NCBI RefSeq assembly: GCF_024220515.1
Contig: NZ_JAMXOT010000102.1
Span: forward strand, 1-40,670
Length of the DNA: 40,670 nucleotides
Source of the DNA: Oscillatoria sp. HE19RPO
GTDB taxonomy: Bacteria > Cyanobacteriota > Cyanobacteriia > Cyanobacteriales > Laspinemataceae
Direction: 5' to 3'
In this document: positions 69 through 26,755 of the stretch, one piece after another
Layout: each line of letters starts with the position of its first letter
Numbering within the stretch: position 1 is the first letter of the stretch
Notes under the pieces: generated by a model
The model's database searches: none
What the model saw: the letters and a program-made list of their open reading frames with translations, nothing else
Told to the model about the DNA's origin: nothing
Made by a program: the position numbers and the translations under genes

Positions 69-1547
69 CTAATCCCTTTTAATTTGGTCCAACAACTCAT
101 AAAACGGCTGCCAATTATCTTCCTGGGCGATCGGTTCCCACACCGCCTCAATTTTGGGGCGGAGTATCACCGTTTGCGGATTATATTTTGCCATCCGTTC
201 TCGCATTCCCTCTAAATCTGCTGTTCCCACAAACTGCAATAAATGAAAATAGGCTCGTTGCCAAGAGGCGAACAGTTCGGAATCGGTTTCCATCGGGCCA
301 AAAATGCAGTCACAGTTTTCCCGCCACTCCGGAGAAAACTGCTGTCTGAGTTGCCAAAAGAACTCCGGATACTCCACCTGAGACTCAGCCAAAAGTTGCA
401 GAGTTAATTGCACCAACTCCGTTCCTGCCTCTTCCGGCATTTCTGCCCCAAATCCCAACTTACTCAGCATCAGTTGGCGATATTCTCGGTTATAATGGTC
501 ATAATATTCCTCTAATGCGGCTTCCATGTCAGCCTCATTAATCACCGCCTTTAACGGCACTTGCAACATTTGCAGATTCCAACGACAGATTGCCGGTTGA
601 TTCCCGTAACTGTAGCGACCATAATAATCAAAGTAGGCAGCGGTAAATTTTAAGTTGTAAGTGGGAATAAAGGCAAAAGGTCCATAATCGAAACTTTCCC
701 CGGTGATGGACATATTATCCGTATTTAACACCGCATGACAAAATCCGGCTGCCATCCATTGTGCCGTCAAGGTAGCCACCCGTTGCACCAGTTCTTGATA
801 AAATCGGGCGTATTTTTCTTTTGGGTTTCCCGTACCCTCGGAGGTCAAGGGCGGTAGAGTATCATTGAGATGAGGATAATAATGGGCGATTACCCAATCT
901 AAGAGTTTTTCGATTAAATCTTTTCGTCCTAAATAGTGCAACCGTTCAAAAGTGCCAAATCGAATATGAGATTCACTAAAGCGGATCATCACCGATGATC
1001 GCGTCGGAGAAGGTTCGTCTCCTCGCCACAATTGTTCGCCGGTTTCAACTAAACTGAAACAGCGAGAGGTTCTAACTCCCATCCGATGCAACATTTCGGC
1101 AGCTAAAACTTCTCTGACTCCGCCTTTGAGGGTTAACCGTCCATCGGCATGACGGGAATAAGGGGTTCTGCCACTGCCTTTGGTGCCGAAGTCGTAGAGT
1201 TTGCCATCGGTCCCCCGGACTTGTGCGTAGACAAAGCCCCGGCCATCCCCTAAATTGGGATTATATTCGCCAAATTGATAACCATGATAGCGCAGGGCTA
1301 AAAATGGTCGAACGCCCTGAAAATAACCAAAAGCTTCGATAAAATCTTCATCGGTTACGGTGGAGGGTTCTAATCCTAATTTTTGTAATAATTCGTCATT
1401 CCGAAACCGGAGAATCTGCTGGGGAAATTCAGCAGCCGGAACGATATCGTAGTAGTCTTCCCCCAAGGATTCCAGGGCAGTTTCCAGGTTGAGGGACAAA
1501 AATGGATTGGCGCGTTTTGGAGTTTGAGCGGAGTCAGCCACAGTCAT
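69..1547 (-). CDS. selO: Protein adenylyltransferase SelO (YdiU/UPF0061 family)
   Basis: SelO is a pseudokinase that transfers AMP from ATP to Ser, Thr or Tyr of other proteins, with a role in redox homeostasis in characterised members. At 492 aa it has full family length. Visible motifs are GDGRG (100-104), [10 protein letters not shown] (123-132), [12 protein letters not shown] (140-151) and the metal/catalytic stretch [10 protein letters not shown] (271-280) followed by GESFDYGPF (283-291), with the Asp/Asn pair intact. The last 65 residues contain no cysteine, whereas the E. coli enzyme is reported to be redox-gated by a disulfide involving a C-terminal Cys, so that switch is probably absent (inference). 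It starts at ATG 1547 and stands alone on the minus strand, divergent from the CP12 gene. Confidence 0.95.
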
Positions 1548-4916: not shown

Positions 4917-6329
4917 ATGGCAACTGCCACTGAACCCAACGATCTCAATCCGCAACCCCCTTCCCAAGCGGGTAAAGACGGATCAGAACTGACTGTTGTC
5001 CCAGAAGACTATAGTCTGTTAACCGATCTCTATCAATTGACAATGGCCGCCTGTTACACCGGGGAAGGTCTCGACGGCAGAACCGCCAGCTTTGAGCTGT
5101 TTGTTCGTAAACTTCCCGAAGGCTTCGGTTATTTAATTGCAATGGGGTTAGCTCAAGTCTTTGAGTACCTAGAGCAATTCCGGTTCACCGAGGTCCAGAT
5201 AGCCAGTTTGCAAGCCACCGGAATTTTTTCCAGGGCTTCTGATAAGTTTTGGTCCCTCCTGGCCGATGCCCGGTTTGAGGGTAATGTGTGGGCGGTTCCC
5301 GAAGGAACGGCAGTCTTTGCCAATGAACCGTTGCTGCGGGTGGAGGCCCCCCTGTGGCAAGCTCAAATCGTCGAAACCTATTTACTGAATACGATTAATT
5401 ATCAGACCCTTGTCGCGACGCGATCGGCGCGCATTCGCGATGTCGCCGGTCCCGAAGCCTCCATTTTGGAGTTTGGTACCCGACGAGCCTTTAGTCCTCA
5501 AGCCTCCCTGTGGGCCGCCCGTGCTGCTTTAGCAGCCGGAATGGATGCCACCTCGAATGTGTTGGCCGCACTTAAATTAGGTCGGAAACCTTCGGGAACG
5601 ATGGCTCACGCTCTGGTGATGGCCCTCTCGGCGACAGAAGGGAGTGAGATGCAGGCGTTTCGAGCGTTTCAGCATTATTTTCCCGGTTCTCCCTTACTCA
5701 TTGATACTTATGATCCGATTGAAGCGGCCCGGAAAATCGCCGATCGCCTCCAAGCCGGAGAAATGGAAGTCGGAGGAGTGCGCCTGGATTCCGGGGATTT
5801 AATCCAATTGTCCAAACAGGTGCAAGAACTGCTTCCCGATGTCCCCATTTTTGTGAGTGGGGATTTGGATGAGTGGAAAATTGCCGACTTGAAAGCCTCG
5901 GGTTGTCCCATTGATGGCTTTGGCATCGGGACTAAGTTAGTTACAGGTGTTCCGGTAAATGGGGTTTATAAAATTGTAGAGATTGATGGGGTGCCGGTGA
6001 TGAAAAATTCTAGCGGCAAAGTCAGCTATCCCGGACGGAAGCAGATTTTCCGACGCTATGAGGATGGACAGATTGTGGGCGATCGCCTGGGATTGGTCAG
6101 TGAGGCCATTCAACCTGGTGAAGTGCCAATGATGCAGCTATTTTTCAAAGAGGGACAGCGGGTTCATCCTCCGGAAATGTTAGAGGCGATCGCCGAAAGA
6201 ACTAGACATTCCGTGGCGTCTCTTCCCCCAGAACTTCGCCGGATCAATCGACCCAGTGGTGCATCGGTAGAGATTTCGACTGCCTTACAAACCCTGACCG
6301 CAGAAACCTTACAGAATTATAAAATGTGA
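4917..6329 (+). CDS. pncB: Nicotinate phosphoribosyltransferase
   Basis: Converts nicotinate and PRPP to nicotinate mononucleotide with ATP hydrolysis, the entry step of the Preiss-Handler NAD salvage route in the cytoplasm. The 470-aa protein has the family motifs LTDLYQLTM (35-43), the phosphoribosyl-binding EFGTRRAFSP (185-194), GTMAHALVMA with the conserved His231, and GVRLDSGDL, FVSGDLDE and GFGIGTKLVTG in the C-terminal half. It starts at ATG 4917 after an AAGGAAG ribosome-binding site and leads the NAD cluster pncB - nadD - nrtR - nadE. The promoter and hairpins in front of it make it the likely control point. Confidence 0.96.
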   Translation: MATATEPNDLNPQPPSQAGKDGSELTVVPEDYSLLTDLYQLTMAACYTGEGLDGRTASFELFVRKLPEGFGYLIAMGLAQVFEYLEQFRFTEVQIASLQATGIFSRASDKFWSLLADARFEGNVWAVPEGTAVFANEPLLRVEAPLWQAQIVETYLLNTINYQTLVATRSARIRDVAGPEASILEFGTRRAFSPQASLWAARAALAAGMDATSNVLAALKLGRKPSGTMAHALVMALSATEGSEMQAFRAFQHYFPGSPLLIDTYDPIEAARKIADRLQAGEMEVGGVRLDSGDLIQLSKQVQELLPDVPIFVSGDLDEWKIADLKASGCPIDGFGIGTKLVTGVPVNGVYKIVEIDGVPVMKNSSGKVSYPGRKQIFRRYEDGQIVGDRLGLVSEAIQPGEVPMMQLFFKEGQRVHPPEMLEAIAERTRHSVASLPPELRRINRPSGASVEISTALQTLTAETLQNYKM

Positions 6330-6624
6330 GCCTTTTTTTCAAACTCTGACTATTTTCACCAGTCCGGGTGCACCATCGGCGAGTTTTGTCTTGATCCTCA
6401 ATTTCTGTTTTCCTCCGGGAGTGGTGAGTGATAGGGAATTCGGTTGGGATAAAAAACCCACACCCTCAAGGGTGGAGGCTCACAAGACGAAGCCTGCCTC
6501 CGCAGGCTAAAGAGAAATATAGACTTGAGACAACCGGATTGGGTATGATTCATCCCCCGGATGACTTGGAAACTCAGCACTCTAGCATTGATAGATTTTG
6601 TCGTTCTCACCCCCTCATTGAAAG
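6330..6624. other. Intra-cluster gap pncB-nadD carrying a dispersed repeat
   Basis: A 295-bp gap with no gene. Its main content is the repeat at 6454-6515. There is no obvious terminator apart from a T-rich stretch right after pncB, so read-through into nadD is possible. Confidence 0.5.
6454..6515. repeat. Dispersed two-hairpin repeat, copy 1
   Basis: About 61 bp beginning AAACCCACACCCTCAAGGGT, closely matching 40561-40620. It holds two small hairpins, CACCCT-CA-AGGGTG and AGCCTGC-CTCC-GCAGGCT. Paired hairpins like these resemble REP/IS200-IS605-type ends, but no transposase is near. Confidence 0.8.
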
Positions 6625-7203
6625 ATGATTACCCTTGCACTCTTTGGTACCAGTGCCGACCCCCCGACCAAAGCCCATGAAGAGATAGTCAGTTGGCTGT
6701 CTCAAGAGTTTGATGCCGTGGCAATTTGGGCGTCGGATAATCCCTTTAAGTCTCATCAAACCCCCCTGTCCCATCGATCGCAGATGTTGCAGTTGCTGAT
6801 GGAAGACCCGGAGAATCCTCGGGATAATCTCTACTTTGATGCGGAACTCAGCCAACCCCGGACCTTAGAAACGGTGCGAATTGCCCGCCAAAAATGGCCC
6901 GAGGCTGAACTGTATCTGGTAATTGGGTCAGACTTAATTCCCCAGTTGCCTCGGTGGTATCAGGTGGAGGAATTGCTCTGTCTAGTCAATCTGCTGGTTG
7001 TCCCGCGACCCGGAAACCCCATTCACGAACCGGAACTAGACCGACTCCGGGAACTGGGTGCATCGGTGGCGATCGCCGACTTGCATCTTCCCGATGTTTC
7101 CTCTACCGCCTATCGTCAAACCCAAACCTCACAAGTCCTCACCCCCCCAGTGGCCCGTTATATCCAACGGGAAAACTTATACGCCTATCAGGATGTGAGC
7201 TAA
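6625..7203 (+). CDS. nadD: Nicotinate-nucleotide adenylyltransferase
   Basis: Adenylates nicotinate mononucleotide to nicotinate adenine dinucleotide, the second step of the NAD pathway. It is a 192-aa nucleotidyltransferase of the HxGH superfamily. The nucleotide-binding motif reads GTSADPPTKAH (8-18), a cyanobacterial form of GGTFDPxHxGH with Lys in place of the first His. DNPFK (38-42), the IGSDLIPQLPRW block (100-111) and SSTAYR (159-164, the ISST-x-R motif) are all present. It starts at ATG 6625 with only a weak AAAG before it. The stop is 4 nt before the nrtR-like start, so the two are almost certainly cotranscribed. Confidence 0.93.
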   Translation: MITLALFGTSADPPTKAHEEIVSWLSQEFDAVAIWASDNPFKSHQTPLSHRSQMLQLLMEDPENPRDNLYFDAELSQPRTLETVRIARQKWPEAELYLVIGSDLIPQLPRWYQVEELLCLVNLLVVPRPGNPIHEPELDRLRELGASVAIADLHLPDVSSTAYRQTQTSQVLTPPVARYIQRENLYAYQDVS

Positions 7204-7207
7204 ACCA

Positions 7208-7924
7208 ATGGCAGCGTCTTTGGGCCTTCCACTCAACTTTAAAGTGGGAGTCGATAATGCAATCTTCTCTGTCGATCCCGCACAAAATCGCTTGCTGGTT
7301 CTCCTCGTCATGCGCGAAAGTGACCCCTTTCTCGGACAATGGAGTTTACCCGGTACTTTAGTTCGTCACGGTGAATCCCTGGAGGATGCGGCCTATCGCA
7401 TTTTATCCGAAAAAATCCAAGTCCAAAATCTCTACCTAGAGCAACTATACACCTTTGCCGGACCCGGACGCGACCCCCGGGAACTTTCCGACTCTCAACC
7501 CTTGCGCTATCTGTCCGTGAGCTATTTTGCCTTAGTCCGGTTTGAAGAAGCTCAACTGATGGGCACTGGAGTCCGGGGGATTGCCTGGTATCCCCTGGAT
7601 GAAGTGCCGCATCTGGCTTTCGATCACAATTGCATGGTTGAATATGGTCATCGCCGCCTGCGAAACAAACTGGAATACAGCCCGATCGCCTTTGATGTGC
7701 TGCCGGAATTATTTACCTTAAGTGAACTGTATCAACTCTATGCAACCGTTTTAGGAGAAAATTTCTCCGATTATTCTAATTTTCGGGCCAAAATTCTCAA
7801 ACTGGGCTTTTTATCGGATACAAAAATGAAAGTGTCTCGCGGCGCAGGGCGGCCAGCAGCCCTCTACCGCTTTGATGCCGAGGCATTTGCGCCGTTGAAA
7901 GATAAACCCTTAGTGTTTATTTAA
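7208..7924 (+). CDS. nrtR: NrtR-family NAD regulator (degenerate Nudix plus winged helix)
   Basis: NrtR proteins sense ADP-ribose-type NAD metabolites through a non-catalytic Nudix domain and repress NAD genes through a C-terminal winged helix. The N-terminal 150 aa show a Nudix fold with the box at 49-72 (GTLVRHGESLEDAAYRIL...), where the catalytic REUxEE becomes R-I-L-S-E-K, so the metal-binding glutamates are broken and hydrolysis is unlikely. Residues 165-235 (LPELFTLSELYQLYATVLG, then FRAKILKLGFL, ending AGRPAALYRF) match the NrtR DNA-binding domain. Its location inside the NAD cluster supports autoregulation with pncB, nadD and nadE. It could be mistaken for a Nudix hydrolase on domain search alone. 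Confidence 0.87.
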   Translation: MAASLGLPLNFKVGVDNAIFSVDPAQNRLLVLLVMRESDPFLGQWSLPGTLVRHGESLEDAAYRILSEKIQVQNLYLEQLYTFAGPGRDPRELSDSQPLRYLSVSYFALVRFEEAQLMGTGVRGIAWYPLDEVPHLAFDHNCMVEYGHRRLRNKLEYSPIAFDVLPELFTLSELYQLYATVLGENFSDYSNFRAKILKLGFLSDTKMKVSRGAGRPAALYRFDAEAFAPLKDKPLVFI

Positions 7925-7982
7925 GGAGAGTTTTAATATCATGTTTGTTTGCTGGATCGCCCACATTGACCTAACCCCCCAA

Positions 7983-8007
7983 CCCCCTTCCCTCAGAGGG
8001 AAGGGGG
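7983..8007. repeat. C/G-rich perfect palindrome between nrtR and nadE
   Basis: CCCCCTTCCCTC (7983-7994), one A, then GAGGGAAGGGGG (7996-8007): a perfect 12-bp inverted repeat in the 189-bp gap between nrtR and nadE. Related palindromes occur at 1632-1650, 27784-27812 and 32842-32866. It could weaken read-through into nadE. Confidence 0.85.
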
Positions 8008-8113
8008 AGAAGATGGGAGGAGAAGAGGAAGAAGTCGTTTTTTAGGCTCATTTTTCTCACTTGAAATAATTTTAAATTTTACCCGTTTATTCCCCAATTG
8101 GTTACTCAATCTT

Positions 8114-9880
8114 ATGAAAATTGCGATCGCCCAACTCAATCCCACCATTGGAGATCTCCAAGGCAATTCCCAACAGATTCTGGAAGCTGCCACCCAAGCT
8201 GCCACCCAGGGAATTGACCTGATGCTGACTCCAGAACTCTCTTTGTGCGGTTATCCCCCTCGGGATTTGCTCTTGCGTCCGAGTTTTATCCAGGCGATGT
8301 CCGCGCAATTACAACAACTGGCCCAAGAATTACCTCCGGCAGTCGCTGTCTTGGTGGGAACCGTGGAAACCCATACCCTCGCCCATACCACCGGAGGCAA
8401 ATCCTTATATAATAGTATCGCCTTACTTTTCAAGGGCAAAATTCAACACTATTTCCACAAACGCCTATTGCCGACCTACGATGTATTTGATGAAAATCGC
8501 TATTTTGAACCCTCCTATGTCAGTAATTATTTTAATTTAGGAGAATTCGGCATTCCCGCCAATCCCGAGGTTTCTCCCCCCATCCGCATCGGGGTAACGA
8601 TTTGCGAAGACTTATGGAATGATGAAGAATTTTGGGGAAAACGGCAATACCCCACTAATCCCATTGCCAATTTAGTCGAAGAAGGAGCGGATATCATTAT
8701 TAATTTATCCGCCTCTCCCTACAGTATGGGGAAACAAAAACTCCGAGAAGCCATGCTCAATCATATCGCCGTCCGATATCACAAACCAATTATCTATGCT
8801 AATCAAGTCGGGGGCAATGATGACTTGATTTTTGATGGATATAGCATTGCCTTCAATGGAGTGGGAGAACGGGTGGCCCTCGCTGCGGGATTTCAAGCGG
8901 ATTTAGTGGCGGTGGAGTTAGATGAAAACAGCCGAGATTTACGTCCGCTTTCCTTCAACAGTGGGGCGATCGCCTCTGAACCTGTCACCCCATCCCCCGC
9001 AAAACCCCTGAGTCAAGCCGAAGAAATCTGGTCCGCCTTGGTGTTGGGAGTGCGAGACTATACCCGCAAATGTGGATTTTCTAAAGTGGTGATTGGGTTA
9101 AGTGGGGGGATTGACTCGTCCCTAGTGGCGGCGATCGCTAGTGAGGCGATCGGACCCTCCAATGTTCTCGGCGTCCTCATGTCTTCCCCCCATACCTCCC
9201 AACAATCCGTTATTGATGCACAGGAACTCGCCGAAAACCTCGGCATAAAAACCTACTCCCTTCCCATCGAGAATTTAATGGCAGGGTATGACAAGACCCT
9301 GGAAGATTTGTTTGCCGACTCTCCCCGGGATGTCACTGAAGAAAATCTGCAAGCGCGGATTCGCGGGAATTTATTAATGGCAATCTCCAATAAATTTGGA
9401 TATCTGCTCATTTCTACTGGGAATAAATCAGAAATGGCTGTGGGATATTGTACCTTGTATGGGGATATGAATGGGGGATTAGCCGCTATTTCTGATGTGC
9501 CGAAAACTCAAGTTTATGCCATTTGCCAATGGCTCAATTCCCGAGAACCGGGGAAAATTATTATTCCTGAAAGTGTCCTGAGTAAACCCCCGAGTGCCGA
9601 ACTCAAACCGGGACAAATTGACCAAGATTCCCTGCCGCCTTATGACATTCTGGATGATATTCTCGATCGCCTGATTCACAATCATGAATCGATTCCCCAA
9701 ATTGTCGCGGCAGGATATGAACCGGCCTTAGTGCAACGGGTGGTGAAGTTGTTAAATGGGGCGGAATTTAAGCGCCGACAAGCCCCCCCGGGATTGAAAG
9801 TCACCGATCGCGCCTTTGGAACAGGGTGGCGAATGCCGATCGCCGCCAAGGTGCCGCAGGTTCCCCTCTCTGCTGAATAA
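8114..9880 (+). CDS. nadE: Glutamine-dependent NAD+ synthetase
   Basis: Amidates nicotinate adenine dinucleotide to NAD+ using ATP and glutamine, the last step of the pathway. The 588-aa protein has two domains. The N-terminal carbon-nitrogen hydrolase (about 1-280) has a complete triad: Glu41 in LTPELSLCGYPP, Lys116 in HKRLLPTYDVFDE and Cys164 in GVTICEDLW. The C-terminal synthetase has the ATP pyrophosphatase P-loop SGGIDSS (330-336), then GNKSEMAVGYCTLYGDMNGG and KPPSAELKPGQ. It is of the glutaminase-containing type usual in cyanobacteria. It closes the NAD cluster and is followed by a hairpin with a T-run. Confidence 0.97.
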   Translation: MKIAIAQLNPTIGDLQGNSQQILEAATQAATQGIDLMLTPELSLCGYPPRDLLLRPSFIQAMSAQLQQLAQELPPAVAVLVGTVETHTLAHTTGGKSLYNSIALLFKGKIQHYFHKRLLPTYDVFDENRYFEPSYVSNYFNLGEFGIPANPEVSPPIRIGVTICEDLWNDEEFWGKRQYPTNPIANLVEEGADIIINLSASPYSMGKQKLREAMLNHIAVRYHKPIIYANQVGGNDDLIFDGYSIAFNGVGERVALAAGFQADLVAVELDENSRDLRPLSFNSGAIASEPVTPSPAKPLSQAEEIWSALVLGVRDYTRKCGFSKVVIGLSGGIDSSLVAAIASEAIGPSNVLGVLMSSPHTSQQSVIDAQELAENLGIKTYSLPIENLMAGYDKTLEDLFADSPRDVTEENLQARIRGNLLMAISNKFGYLLISTGNKSEMAVGYCTLYGDMNGGLAAISDVPKTQVYAICQWLNSREPGKIIIPESVLSKPPSAELKPGQIDQDSLPPYDILDDILDRLIHNHESIPQIVAAGYEPALVQRVVKLLNGAEFKRRQAPPGLKVTDRAFGTGWRMPIAAKVPQVPLSAE

Positions 9881-22516: not shown

Positions 22517-24166
22517 ATGACCTTGAGCAAATCCGTTCCCATCGTGAGGATTACGGACCCCGATGTGGGGAAACAACATATTCTCGCTGCAGTCGATATG
22601 GGGACGAACTCCCTGCACATGGTCGTGGTCAAAATCGACCCAACCCTACCGGCCTTTACAATTATCACCCGGGAAAAAGAAACCGTCCGTCTGGGCGATC
22701 GCGACATCAAAACCGGCAACCTCAAACCGGAAGTTATGGCACGCACCCTCAAAGCGCTGCGCCGCTTCCAGCAACGCGCCGAGAGTCTCAATGCGGAACA
22801 AGTGGTTGCGGTTGCCACCTCTGCCATGCGCGAAGCCCCCAATGGAAGGGACTTTCTCAAAGAAATCGAAACCGAACTGGGACTGCGGGTCAGTTTAATT
22901 TCTGGACAGGAAGAGGCGCGACGGATCTACCTTGGCGTTCTCTCGGGAATGGACTTTAACGAAGAACCGCATATCATTATTGATATTGGGGGCGGTTCTA
23001 CGGAACTGATTTTAGGGGATGGTCAGGAACCCCGTTCCCTGAGTAGCACGAAAATTGGGGCCGTGCGTCTGACCAGCGAATTTATTACCACGGACCCCAT
23101 TAGTAACAGCGAGTTTGACTTTTTGCAAGCCTACATTCGCGGGATGTTAGAGCGTCCAGTGGAGGAGTTGCAGGCGCGGTTGTACTTGGAGGAACAGCCT
23201 CGGTTGGTGGGGACTTCGGGAACCATTGAAACCCTAGCTGTGGCGATCGCCCGGGAAAAACAGGGAGTCGAACCCTCTCCCTTAACCGGCTATCAATTCA
23301 AATTAAAAGACTTATCCGATTTTGTCCAACGCTTGCGGAAACTCTCCTACAATCAACGGTTAGACATTCCGGGGATGTCGGACAAGCGCGCCGAAATTAT
23401 CCTCCCGGGGGCTTTGATTTTGCTCGAAGCGATGACCCTGTTGAAGATGGACTCCCTCACCGTCTGCGAGCGATCGCTGCGGGAAGGGGTGATCGTTGAT
23501 TGGATGCTCACCCACGGATTCATTGAGGACCGTCTGCGCTATCAGAGTTCCATCCGTCAACGTAGTACCCTGAAAATTGCCCAAAAACATCACGTTAATC
23601 TCGACTCTGCCGAACGAATTGCGGGATTTGTGCTGACTCTATTCGATCGCACCCAAGGGTTACTTCATGACTGGGGTTTAAATGAACGAGAATTACTCTG
23701 GTCAGCGGCAATTTTGCATAACTGCGGGATTCATATTAGTCATTCGGCTCATCACAAACACTCCTATTATCTAATTCGCAATGGGGAGTTGCTGGGATAT
23801 ACGGATACTGAGGTGGAAATCATCGCCAATCTGGCTCGCTATCATCGCCAGAGTGCACCGAAGAAGAAGCATGATAATTATCGGAATTTGCCGAGTAAGC
23901 AACATCGCAAAATGGTCAGTCAATTGAGTGCGTTGTTACGGTTGGCTGTTGCCTTGGACCGCCGCCAAGTTGGGGCGATCGCTCAACTCGGTTGCCGCTA
24001 TTTCCCCGACACCCAACAACTGCATTTAATCCTCCATCCCAATGCACCCGATGACCCTTGCGTGTTAGAACTCTGGAGTCTCGACCAGAAAAAAGTCGTA
24101 TTTGAAGAAGAATATGACGTTCAATTAATCCCCAAACTAGAAGCGGTTCCGGCTGCCCTGCGCTAA
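22517..24166 (+). CDS. ppx: Exopolyphosphatase Ppx/GppA family
   Basis: Releases phosphate from polyphosphate ends and/or hydrolyses pppGpp in the cytoplasm. The 549-aa protein has the ASKHA phosphate motif DMGTNSLHMVV (27-37), the second motif IIDIGGGSTELI (about 154-165) and SGTIETLAVAI. The C-terminal half carries the HD-like helical domain (LLWSAAILHNCGIHISHSAHHKHS, about 394 onward). That is the long Ppx form rather than a short GppA. ATG 22517 follows a GGAGGG ribosome-binding site. A Wzz-like gene follows after 50 bp on the same strand, probably cotranscribed. Confidence 0.94.
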   Translation: MTLSKSVPIVRITDPDVGKQHILAAVDMGTNSLHMVVVKIDPTLPAFTIITREKETVRLGDRDIKTGNLKPEVMARTLKALRRFQQRAESLNAEQVVAVATSAMREAPNGRDFLKEIETELGLRVSLISGQEEARRIYLGVLSGMDFNEEPHIIIDIGGGSTELILGDGQEPRSLSSTKIGAVRLTSEFITTDPISNSEFDFLQAYIRGMLERPVEELQARLYLEEQPRLVGTSGTIETLAVAIAREKQGVEPSPLTGYQFKLKDLSDFVQRLRKLSYNQRLDIPGMSDKRAEIILPGALILLEAMTLLKMDSLTVCERSLREGVIVDWMLTHGFIEDRLRYQSSIRQRSTLKIAQKHHVNLDSAERIAGFVLTLFDRTQGLLHDWGLNERELLWSAAILHNCGIHISHSAHHKHSYYLIRNGELLGYTDTEVEIIANLARYHRQSAPKKKHDNYRNLPSKQHRKMVSQLSALLRLAVALDRRQVGAIAQLGCRYFPDTQQLHLILHPNAPDDPCVLELWSLDQKKVVFEEEYDVQLIPKLEAVPAALR

Positions 24167-24216: not shown

Positions 24217-25431
24217 ATGAATCTTTCTTTTGTTTCCCGATATGTTCACAGCTTAAATCGTTACAAATGGCTAGTTTTGGCGCTGATTACTGCCGGATTG
24301 GGCATCGGAGGCGTCATGGCTTTGCAGATAGAACCCGTTCCCAAATATATTGCCACGGGTTCTTTACGCGGGAATCAAACCACAGATTCTTTATCGGAAA
24401 CTACCCGGCAAATTATTAATCAAGGGCAGCAATTTTCTCAGCCGGAAGAGTTGGTGCGGTTGCTGTTGGCGGATAATGTGATTCAGGCGGTGGCGGATAA
24501 TGTGAATCTGTCTGCGGTGGAAGTCCGCGATCGCCTATTATTGAAACTCCCCAGTCCCGAAACCTCCGGGTCTCTGCGGGTGATGTATCGAGATAATAAC
24601 TCCGAACGCGCCCTCCAAACTGCATCGGGACTGATGCAGGCAATGGTTCAACAGAGTCAACTGATTAATAAAGCTCGTCTCAATGGCGTGGTGGAACAGC
24701 TCAATCTCCGCCTCTCCCAAGCGCGGCAAGAACTCCAGTCCGCCCAACAAAATTTGGATGAGTATTATGGCTATGATGAGGCCGAGCGATCGCAACTGCA
24801 ACAAGAGGTGACCCTCAAACAAGAAAGACTGACTCAACTCCAAACTGCTGTGACTGAAGCAACAACGGCGCAAGGGGAAATGATCAGTAGTTTGAAGATT
24901 GCCGAATCCCCCCAAGTTGCCGAAACCCACGCCAATCAACCCTTTATTACAACCTTAGCCCTCGGGGCGATCGCCGGATTAGCCCTCAGTGCCCTGGTGA
25001 TTTTAGTCTTAGCTTTAGTCACGAACCCACTCCATTACAAAGCATTTCGCCGTCAGTTACTGGCCGCTTATCAAGGACGATGCCCCATTACCGGCTGTGA
25101 TGTAGAAGCGGCCCTGGAAGTGGTTCGTCTCGACCCCAGTCAGGTAACCCGTTCTAGTGATATCTGGAATGGCTTAATTTTACGGGCGGATATTCAACGG
25201 TTATTCGCCGCCAAGCAAATCGCGATCGAACCGGGAACGTTACAGGTGATGCTGTCTCCCGAATTAAGTAAAACTAACTATGGCAAATTAGCCCGTCGGC
25301 GGCTGACTGTCCCAGAGGAGGAAGCGGATCAACCGAACCTAGATGCCCTAGACGCACATTATCGCCAATGTTCGTGGATTACAGACTTTACTCCAAAACC
25401 GAGAGAAACCGAAGATTTAAAATCAATTTAA
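24217..25431 (+). CDS. Wzz-like membrane protein fused to a degenerate HNH_2 domain
   Basis: A 404-aa two-part protein. Residues 1-266 look like a polysaccharide co-polymerase/chain-length regulator: TM1 about 18-38 (WLVLALITAGLGIGGVMAL), an extracytoplasmic region with YIATGSLRGN and a long coiled coil (about 160-225, Gln/Glu-rich), and TM2 about 242-266. The cytoplasmic tail (about 274-390) follows the HNH_2 pattern: FRRQLLAAYQGRCPITGCDV, ALEVVRLDP, NGLILRADIQRLF, then a VMLSPEL-K--YG--R-L-VP block. The C-x4-C pair (Cys289, Cys294) is kept, but the H-N-H triad reads Arg304, Asn318, Gln327, so nuclease activity is unlikely. In Wzc-type proteins a tyrosine kinase occupies this position. It follows ppx by 50 bp. 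Confidence 0.8.
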   Translation: MNLSFVSRYVHSLNRYKWLVLALITAGLGIGGVMALQIEPVPKYIATGSLRGNQTTDSLSETTRQIINQGQQFSQPEELVRLLLADNVIQAVADNVNLSAVEVRDRLLLKLPSPETSGSLRVMYRDNNSERALQTASGLMQAMVQQSQLINKARLNGVVEQLNLRLSQARQELQSAQQNLDEYYGYDEAERSQLQQEVTLKQERLTQLQTAVTEATTAQGEMISSLKIAESPQVAETHANQPFITTLALGAIAGLALSALVILVLALVTNPLHYKAFRRQLLAAYQGRCPITGCDVEAALEVVRLDPSQVTRSSDIWNGLILRADIQRLFAAKQIAIEPGTLQVMLSPELSKTNYGKLARRRLTVPEEEADQPNLDALDAHYRQCSWITDFTPKPRETEDLKSI

Positions 25432-26204: not shown

Positions 26205-26287
26205 GTCACGAACAGACTTTTCCTCACCGCAAACATTCCTATCCAATACCCTTTTCCTCTTGGGTATAGCAATGTTTGATTCCTCTA

Positions 26288-26329
26288 ATCAAAAGCCGGT
26301 TGTCACGTTGAGTGCGACCGGCTTTTGAT
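26288..26329. terminator. Bidirectional terminator after patX
   Basis: ATCAAAAGCCGGT (26288-26300) and ACCGGCTTTTGAT (26317-26329) form a perfect 13-bp stem with A/T tracts on both outer strands. Confidence 0.85.
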
Positions 26330-26340
26330 TGGGGGGATGG

Positions 26341-26445
26341 GTCATTTGTCATTTGTCCTGGGTCATTTGTCATTTGTCCTGGGTCATTTGTCATTTGTCC
26401 TGGGTCATTTGTCATTTGTCCTGGGTCATTTGTCATTTGTCCTGG
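26341..26445. repeat. 21-bp tandem repeat, five copies
   Basis: GTCATTTGTCATTTGTCCTG plus G repeats at 26341, 26362, 26383, 26404 and 26425 without change. The period of seven codons keeps all frames open and produces artefactual repeat peptides. It lies between the patX terminator and the end of the small membrane protein gene. Confidence 0.97.
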
Positions 26446-26458
26446 GTGGAGGGGGGGT

Positions 26459-26755
26459 TTATTCGGGTCCTCGGAGGTTTTGATAGCGGTATAAGGCGTA
26501 TGCATCAAATAAGACTCCAACTAAGCTACAGGTGAGTCCAATGACGATGGCCCCTTGGAGGGGATGACCACTGCCAAAGGTGGATAAGAATTGTAACAAC
26601 TGCTTCACAGTGGATTGACCGAGGTTTGTCAGTCCGGGAAGGTGGGCGATCGCCTCGGCCATGACGAATCCACCGGCCAAGGTGAGCGTCGGGACGGCAA
26701 AACTCAGTAAACTGGTTAATAATAGCGATCGCAGAAAATGAGGAAAACTATTCAT
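26459..26755 (-). CDS. Small membrane protein of unknown function
   Basis: 98 aa from ATG 26755: MNSFPHFLRSLLLTSLLSFA opens the first hydrophobic segment (about 7-40, Gly/Ala-rich), and a second lies near 70-90 (QGAIVIGLTCSLVGVLFDAYALYRY). The layout of two helices around a short polar loop suggests a small integral membrane protein; I do not recognise the family. A GTG start at 26857 would add 34 polar residues without improving the ribosome-binding site. The 21-bp tandem repeat begins just after its stop. Confidence 0.6.
   Translation of the reverse strand: MNSFPHFLRSLLLTSLLSFAVPTLTLAGGFVMAEAIAHLPGLTNLGQSTVKQLLQFLSTFGSGHPLQGAIVIGLTCSLVGVLFDAYALYRYQNLRGPE

Follow-up and report, generated by a model that had tools for sequence, protein, structure and literature searches.

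Organization of the locus

The window analyzed here is a stretch of 40,670 nucleotides from Oscillatoria sp. HE19RPO (contig NZ_JAMXOT010000102.1). Downstream of ppx it contains a single uninterrupted open reading frame of 404 codons, with an ATG start and zero internal stops. The gene product combines a short, kinase-less body that has the predicted fold of a polysaccharide co-polymerase (PCP) with a C-terminal domain of the HNH fold, called pseudo-HNH below, whose catalytic residues are lost. The coordinates are given in Table 1. Scans for promoters and terminators gave results at chance level.

Table 1. The fusion gene, its predicted domains and key residues, and the upstream neighbour (positions in the window)
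Feature	Position	Strand	Evidence
ppx, upstream neighbour (50 bp gap)	22517..24166	+	Pfam; linkage kept in four genera
Fusion gene, short kinase-less PCP + pseudo-HNH domain, 404 aa	24217..25431	+	ORF; full-length orthologues
TM helix 1, residues 17-37	24265..24327	+	Hydropathy, model
Predicted periplasmic PCP domain, residues 38-240 (long helices 129-182 and 188-221)	24328..24936	+	Model; fold matches to Wzc, KpsE, WzzE
TM helix 2, residues 241-268	24937..25020	+	Hydropathy, model
Pseudo-HNH domain, residues 272-388, predicted cytoplasmic	25030..25380	+	Model; TagI/VcaM4I fold matches; dN/dS 0.175
C289-x4-C294 pair	25081..25098	+	Sequence, alignment
R304, replaces water-activating His (VcaM4I H224)	25126..25128	+	Alignment; codon CGT
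N318, structural Asn retained (VcaM4I N241)	25168..25170	+	Alignment
Q327, replaces metal-ligand His (VcaM4I D250)	25195..25197	+	Alignment
A331, replaces second metal-ligand Asp (VcaM4I D254)	25207..25209	+	Alignment

In each of the four genera with the fusion gene, it lies 3' of ppx. The gap between the two genes is similar in G157 (53 bp) and reaches several hundred bases in G096 and some congeners. In every genome compared, ubiA and ppx are adjacent, usually in divergent orientation. Two genomes of two other families (G104 and G011) carry the block ubiA-ppx-...-mlaE-DUF-DUF3086-plsY without the fusion gene and otherwise as in the window; the fifth genus of the family has no comparable gene after ppx. 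The simplest reading is that an ancestor of the family acquired the fusion gene by insertion between ppx and mlaE of a housekeeping block. In the neighbourhoods read, no neighbour was an exopolysaccharide (EPS) gene. An initial annotation of this DNA had suggested that ppx could tie the fusion protein to the phosphate or (p)ppGpp state. The persistent linkage in four genera allows a functional tie; the evidence for it is adjacency, and the block exists without the fusion gene in other families, so this suggestion was not upheld.

Several other features of the region were seen in passing. An ORF at 26239-26520(-) of the window encodes five tandem GQMTNDP heptads and is probably a simple 21-bp DNA repeat, not a gene. 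A SelO/YdiU-like gene, named by eye, recurs in the region (window 69-1547(-), L092:2102-3583 and L158:3744-5174); its distance from ppx is ~22 kb in the window and < 1 kb in G056, and in G157 it lies 3.5 kb from the fusion gene. A pair of serine-recombinase and TnpB-like genes (by eye) lies between ubiA and ppx in G157 (L092:10080-11821), that is, a mobile-element insertion beside the fusion locus. The window also holds an apparent, ordinary NAD salvage cluster at 4917-9880(+), read by eye as nicotinate phosphoribosyltransferase, nucleotidyltransferase, Nudix regulator-like and NAD synthetase genes.

The N-terminal half has the predicted fold of a PCP

Hydrophobic stretches at residues ~17-39 and 242-274 flank a domain with two long helices. 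In this half, the AlphaFold2 model (pLDDT 86, pTM 0.55) shows the two TM helices, a small alpha/beta base and these long helices. Residues 5-270 of the model matched the solved PCPs Wzc (9r6b, Z 13.5), KpsE (8tsh, Z 13.4) and WzzE (3b8o, Z 10.2), and Foldseek matches of the N-half to PCPs reached E values down to 8e-9. Hydropathy and the model also gave the topology of a PCP, with two TM helices around a periplasmic domain and both protein ends predicted to be cytoplasmic; the orientation was deduced from positive residues at both cytoplasmic ends. Pfam model PF02706 scored 11.3 bits, below its cut-off of 25.5, which is a threshold of the model and not a biological feature. Ninety-nine divergent cyanobacterial PCPs without a PF02706 domain have been reported (Pereira et al. 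2015, PMC4594306). Despite the PF02706 miss, the N-half is thus a PCP by its modelled fold, and the Wzz-like, two-helix N-terminus proposed in the initial annotation is borne out at this level. The same annotation had placed the protein at an EPS machine. Of this proposal the PCP part stands; EPS membership is suggested by the fold only, and no EPS gene adjoins. No kinase model matched the fusion protein, in which the pseudo-HNH domain occupies the position of the kinase domain with its Walker motifs.

Related short PCPs carry a different tail

The closest relatives of the N-half were found by sequence search in family f2 of the order. These are short, kinase-less PCPs (L018-L035) with N-halves 38-41% identical to that of the fusion protein. 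In a tree, the N-halves of the f2 proteins and of the fusion protein fell on one side of a branch and 21 sampled kinases on the other (99/98). The fusion protein thus probably groups with the f2 short PCPs apart from the kinases, in a tree with long branches. The f2 proteins end in a segment of ~60 residues without an HNH domain. The segment looks winged-helix-like, a label given by eye; no Pfam model matched it. By sequence, related short PCPs therefore carry different tails, an aspect absent from the initial annotation. The window's own genome has the same winged-helix-like segment at the end of one 236-aa protein and of two small proteins encoded side by side (G000:C348, L151, and C103, L153); the small proteins appear to be membrane-bound.

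Kinase-type PCPs were the next sequence relatives of the N-half after the short PCPs. One encoded in the same genome (contig C62) aligns over residues 1-183 and the alignment resumes after ~160 residues that have no counterpart in the fusion protein. The gene for this nearest kinase-type PCP (L186, C62:62000-72000) adjoins a Poly_export (OPX) gene and, going by a reading of the ORFs by eye, a gene for a putative exosortase.

The C-terminal half is a pseudo-HNH domain

A model of the C-terminal half, built with 43 sequences, had a pLDDT of 92.7. Its best fold match was TagI (6ghs; Z 13.5, 108 residues, 2.3 Å, match region 272-393), followed by VcaM4I (6yex, Z 11.2). Cas9 and other HNH structures ranked well below these, from Z 7.1. 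DotN of the Legionella type IV coupling complex was a weak match (Z 5.5 over 64 residues), and values of Z < 8 may reflect a common arrangement only. The fold of the C-half is thus that of an HNH domain, which rules out a non-HNH alternative and agrees with the earlier proposal of a decayed HNH domain at the place where Wzc has its kinase. Pfam was less decisive: against a cut-off of 21, PF13391 (HNH_2) scored 16.6 bits with the whole protein, 19.5 bits with the domain alone and 21.8 bits with the neighbours in the frame. Although Pfam alone is weak, the relationship to HNH_2 is beyond doubt because the C-half aligns with intact HNH domains, at 35-50% identity, and has their fold.

A PDB sequence search with the domain alone was unproductive, and a profile had to be used. 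The profile of domain relatives matched VcaM4I by sequence (E 6e-6) and supplied the residue register listed in Table 1. The C-x4-C pair, Arg304, Asn318 and Gln327 were exactly as placed in the initial annotation; according to the alignment, A331 is a fourth lost functional position. In VcaM4I, H224 activates the attacking water, N241 is structural, D250 is a metal ligand and D254 its likely partner; H224A, D250A and D254A cause a drastic loss of activity, whereas exchange of N241 has a very mild effect (PMC7897488). Read against these roles, the window protein appears to have retained the structural residue and lost the chemistry. We therefore class the C-half, by sequence, as a homologue of the HNH fold and not as a nuclease.

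The fusion is conserved within one family

Full-length fusion genes were found in 11 of the 14 genomes of the family, distributed over four of its five genera (Laspinema and relatives); the three genomes of the fifth genus have none. Orthologues from other genera have the same architecture at 41-43% identity, and the ten orthologues other than the window gene are single intact ORFs. The catalytic positions are lost in all 11. The H-N-H-D positions read R-N-Q-A in the window and R-N-H-N, Y-H-R-D or T-N-K-E elsewhere. The congener L011 has a His at 304, yet Gln and Thr at the metal positions, and L015 retains one metal-position His. The dN/dS values within the genus, calculated by the Nei-Gojobori method as a ratio of means, were 0.175 (residues 276-390), 0.164 (periplasmic part) and 0.43 (TM2); the final 14 residues of the protein are unconstrained. 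Judged from these sequences, the domain is dead as a nuclease yet maintained under purifying selection, which supports the view in the initial annotation that it is non-catalytic.

No full-length match outside the family was listed among 293 genomes of the order, and the ORFs examined from a tail-only search of the class had partners other than a PCP. A pattern scan of ~85,000 species genomes gave full-length matches only in Laspinema-group and Oscillatoria-type records; sampling and the pattern-based method limit what this absence elsewhere can tell. The fusion is real, conserved and lineage-restricted. In the literature searched, we found no relevant description of a PCP–HNH fusion or of an inactive HNH domain on pentapeptide repeats.

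Loss of H-N-H residues among related domains

We aligned 95 domains gathered by their similarity to that of the window, so that the proportions among them are no census. H-N-H was kept in all 58 relatives without pentapeptide repeats or a PCP, of which 15 came from named genome records and 43 were counted under other partners (among them WD40, leucine-rich repeats and EVE-like). At least one of the residues, nearly always the first His, was lost in 22 of 26 pentapeptide-fused domains, and H-N-H was lost in 11 of 11 PCP-fused domains. The pentapeptide-fused class includes L048, L054 and L055; L054 has N-terminal repeats and the other two are its close relatives. Going by the aligned residues, then, the dead form of HNH is common on cyanobacterial pentapeptide-repeat proteins, a finding not anticipated in the initial annotation.

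Five long cyanobacterial proteins (L048, L052, L054, L055 and L116) have the dead HNH domain just before a TM helix, so that it is again membrane-adjacent, and a further domain beyond. Pentapeptide repeats were seen in L052, L054 and L116, and the far domain of L048 gave a sub-threshold Cu_amine_oxidN1 match.

The window's own genome encodes a pentapeptide-repeat protein with a dead HNH domain (L003:1492-3033, contig C74), which has Tyr for the first His and Ser for the Asn. Of the 13 other genomes in the family, 12 have a copy. It thus occurs in 10 of the 11 genomes with the fusion (it is missing in G203, which is 92% complete) and in all three family genomes that lack the fusion. Since the fusion-less genomes carry the protein too, its co-occurrence with the fusion is uninformative as proof of a partnership.

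The PCP tails formed one clade (99/96) in the domain tree, which has only 112 columns. Without constraints the tree requires four changes between dead and intact domains. Neither a single clade of all dead domains (AU p 0.31) nor a clade of the PCP tails with the family's pentapeptide tails (p 0.43) was rejected. The tree therefore neither supports nor rejects an origin of the PCP tail from the pentapeptide pseudo-HNH protein of the same genome.

Discussion

Discussion of how PCPs control polysaccharide export usually centres on the tyrosine phosphorylation of Wzc. The fusion gene would encode a short inner-membrane PCP-like protein with a two-TM body and no kinase. We suggest, with roughly an even chance of being right, that it is a kinase-less PCP with an interchangeable non-catalytic tail, most likely a protein-docking or oligomerisation module at the PCP ring. 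By its PCP fold, the body would form an inner-membrane ring, as other PCPs do, and take part in polysaccharide assembly. With the tail on the cytoplasmic side, as the topology predicts, such a ring would present several pseudo-HNH copies at its cytoplasmic face. The tail could then take the place of control by phosphorylation, tying either adjacent PCP subunits or some cytosolic protein to the ring; in the same genomes, the pentapeptide-repeat protein with the pseudo-HNH domain is a candidate partner. Docking or dimerisation is proposed as the job of the tail because TagI (PMC6212794) and VcaM4I (PMC7897488) both dimerise through their HNH domains, and because the tail is near neutral in charge. 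In domains of this type, the dimer contact is made by the helix of the beta-beta-alpha motif. The two fold assignments, the loss of catalytic positions in a conserved architecture, the purifying selection on the dead domain and the different tail of the sister PCPs also speak for this reading. We count the missing EPS neighbour, the PF02706 miss and the His at 304 of L011 against the docking reading.

The main alternative, which we consider unlikely, is that the pseudo-HNH domain still binds a nucleotide or nucleic acid, though it no longer cuts, and so tethers or senses it at the PCP. The fold descends from DNA-cutting domains, a few basic residues lie near TM2, and the tails of the sister PCPs are of a winged-helix-like type (by eye) that often binds DNA. 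However, the tail has a net charge of about zero (mean +0.6 over the 11 orthologues, pI 7.3) and is not strongly basic, although the same is true of the intact relatives, and the protein has no sensor domain. A relic tail, which would have no partner of its own and serve chiefly as a folded extension to stabilise the protein, is rather improbable: free drift of the catalytic positions between genera and the unconstrained last 14 residues would fit such a relic, whereas the dN/dS of the domain, which equals that of the periplasmic part, and the retention of the full length across four genera, despite their divergence, argue for constraint.

HNH enzymes can swap their moniker residues for functional equivalents (PMC7897488), which, together with the single His residues of L015 and L011, is what could be said for continued nuclease activity of the tail through an unusual active site. 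This is highly improbable on sequence grounds: Arg, Gln and Ala stand at the water-activator and metal positions, none of them suitable, and in VcaM4I any one of the three corresponding exchanges leads to a drastic drop in activity. We reject the possibility, negligible in our estimate and with nothing seen in its favour, that the fusion is an assembly join or a frameshift of two genes, since it is a single ORF in 11 genomes, including one in which it lies on a 7.7-Mb contig (G113) and one assembled as a single contig (G157).

A broader proposal, which we regard as speculative, extends the docking reading. In cyanobacteria, the dead HNH domain may serve as an adaptor of general use in the cytoplasm, often close to the membrane, in pentapeptide proteins, in proteins with pentapeptide repeats, a TM helix and an extracytoplasmic domain, and in PCPs. 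In the present family, such modules would then bind one another and link a cytosolic solenoid protein with an envelope polysaccharide machine, in this way substituting for tyrosine phosphorylation.

Comparison with known systems

Kinase-less PCPs with dead HNH or winged-helix-like tails would suggest a second means of controlling or anchoring PCP rings. The dead HNH domain would also be a clear-cut and testable example of how a restriction-type nuclease fold becomes a structural module, with H-N-H residues lost on pentapeptide and PCP proteins and intact in 58 of 58 other relatives sampled. DotN is a possible precedent for an HNH-like fold serving as a scaffold at a membrane machine; nothing relevant to DotN was found in the literature searched. 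Unlike the tail described here, DotN is a stand-alone protein of another system.

The PCP-2a tyrosine kinases of the Wzc type, KpsE and WzzE share the two-TM topology, the alpha/beta base and the long helices with the fusion protein. Compared with the Wzc type, the fusion protein lacks ~160 coiled-coil residues and any kinase or Walker motif, has the pseudo-HNH domain instead, and is encoded outside an EPS cluster. The f2 short PCPs are alike in the N-half and differ in their winged-helix-like tail. TagI (SRA-HNH) and VcaM4I (EVE-HNH), both modification-dependent restriction enzymes, have the fold, the C-x4-C context and the structural Asn in common with the tail of the fusion protein. In contrast to these enzymes, the tail has lost the water activator and both metal ligands, and it is fused to a membrane protein where they have a modification sensor. 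The cyanobacterial pentapeptide proteins with an HNH_2-like C-terminus (such as L003) contain a closely related domain that has often lost H-N-H as well; theirs is joined to a pentapeptide solenoid rather than to a PCP body, and most of them keep the metal positions.
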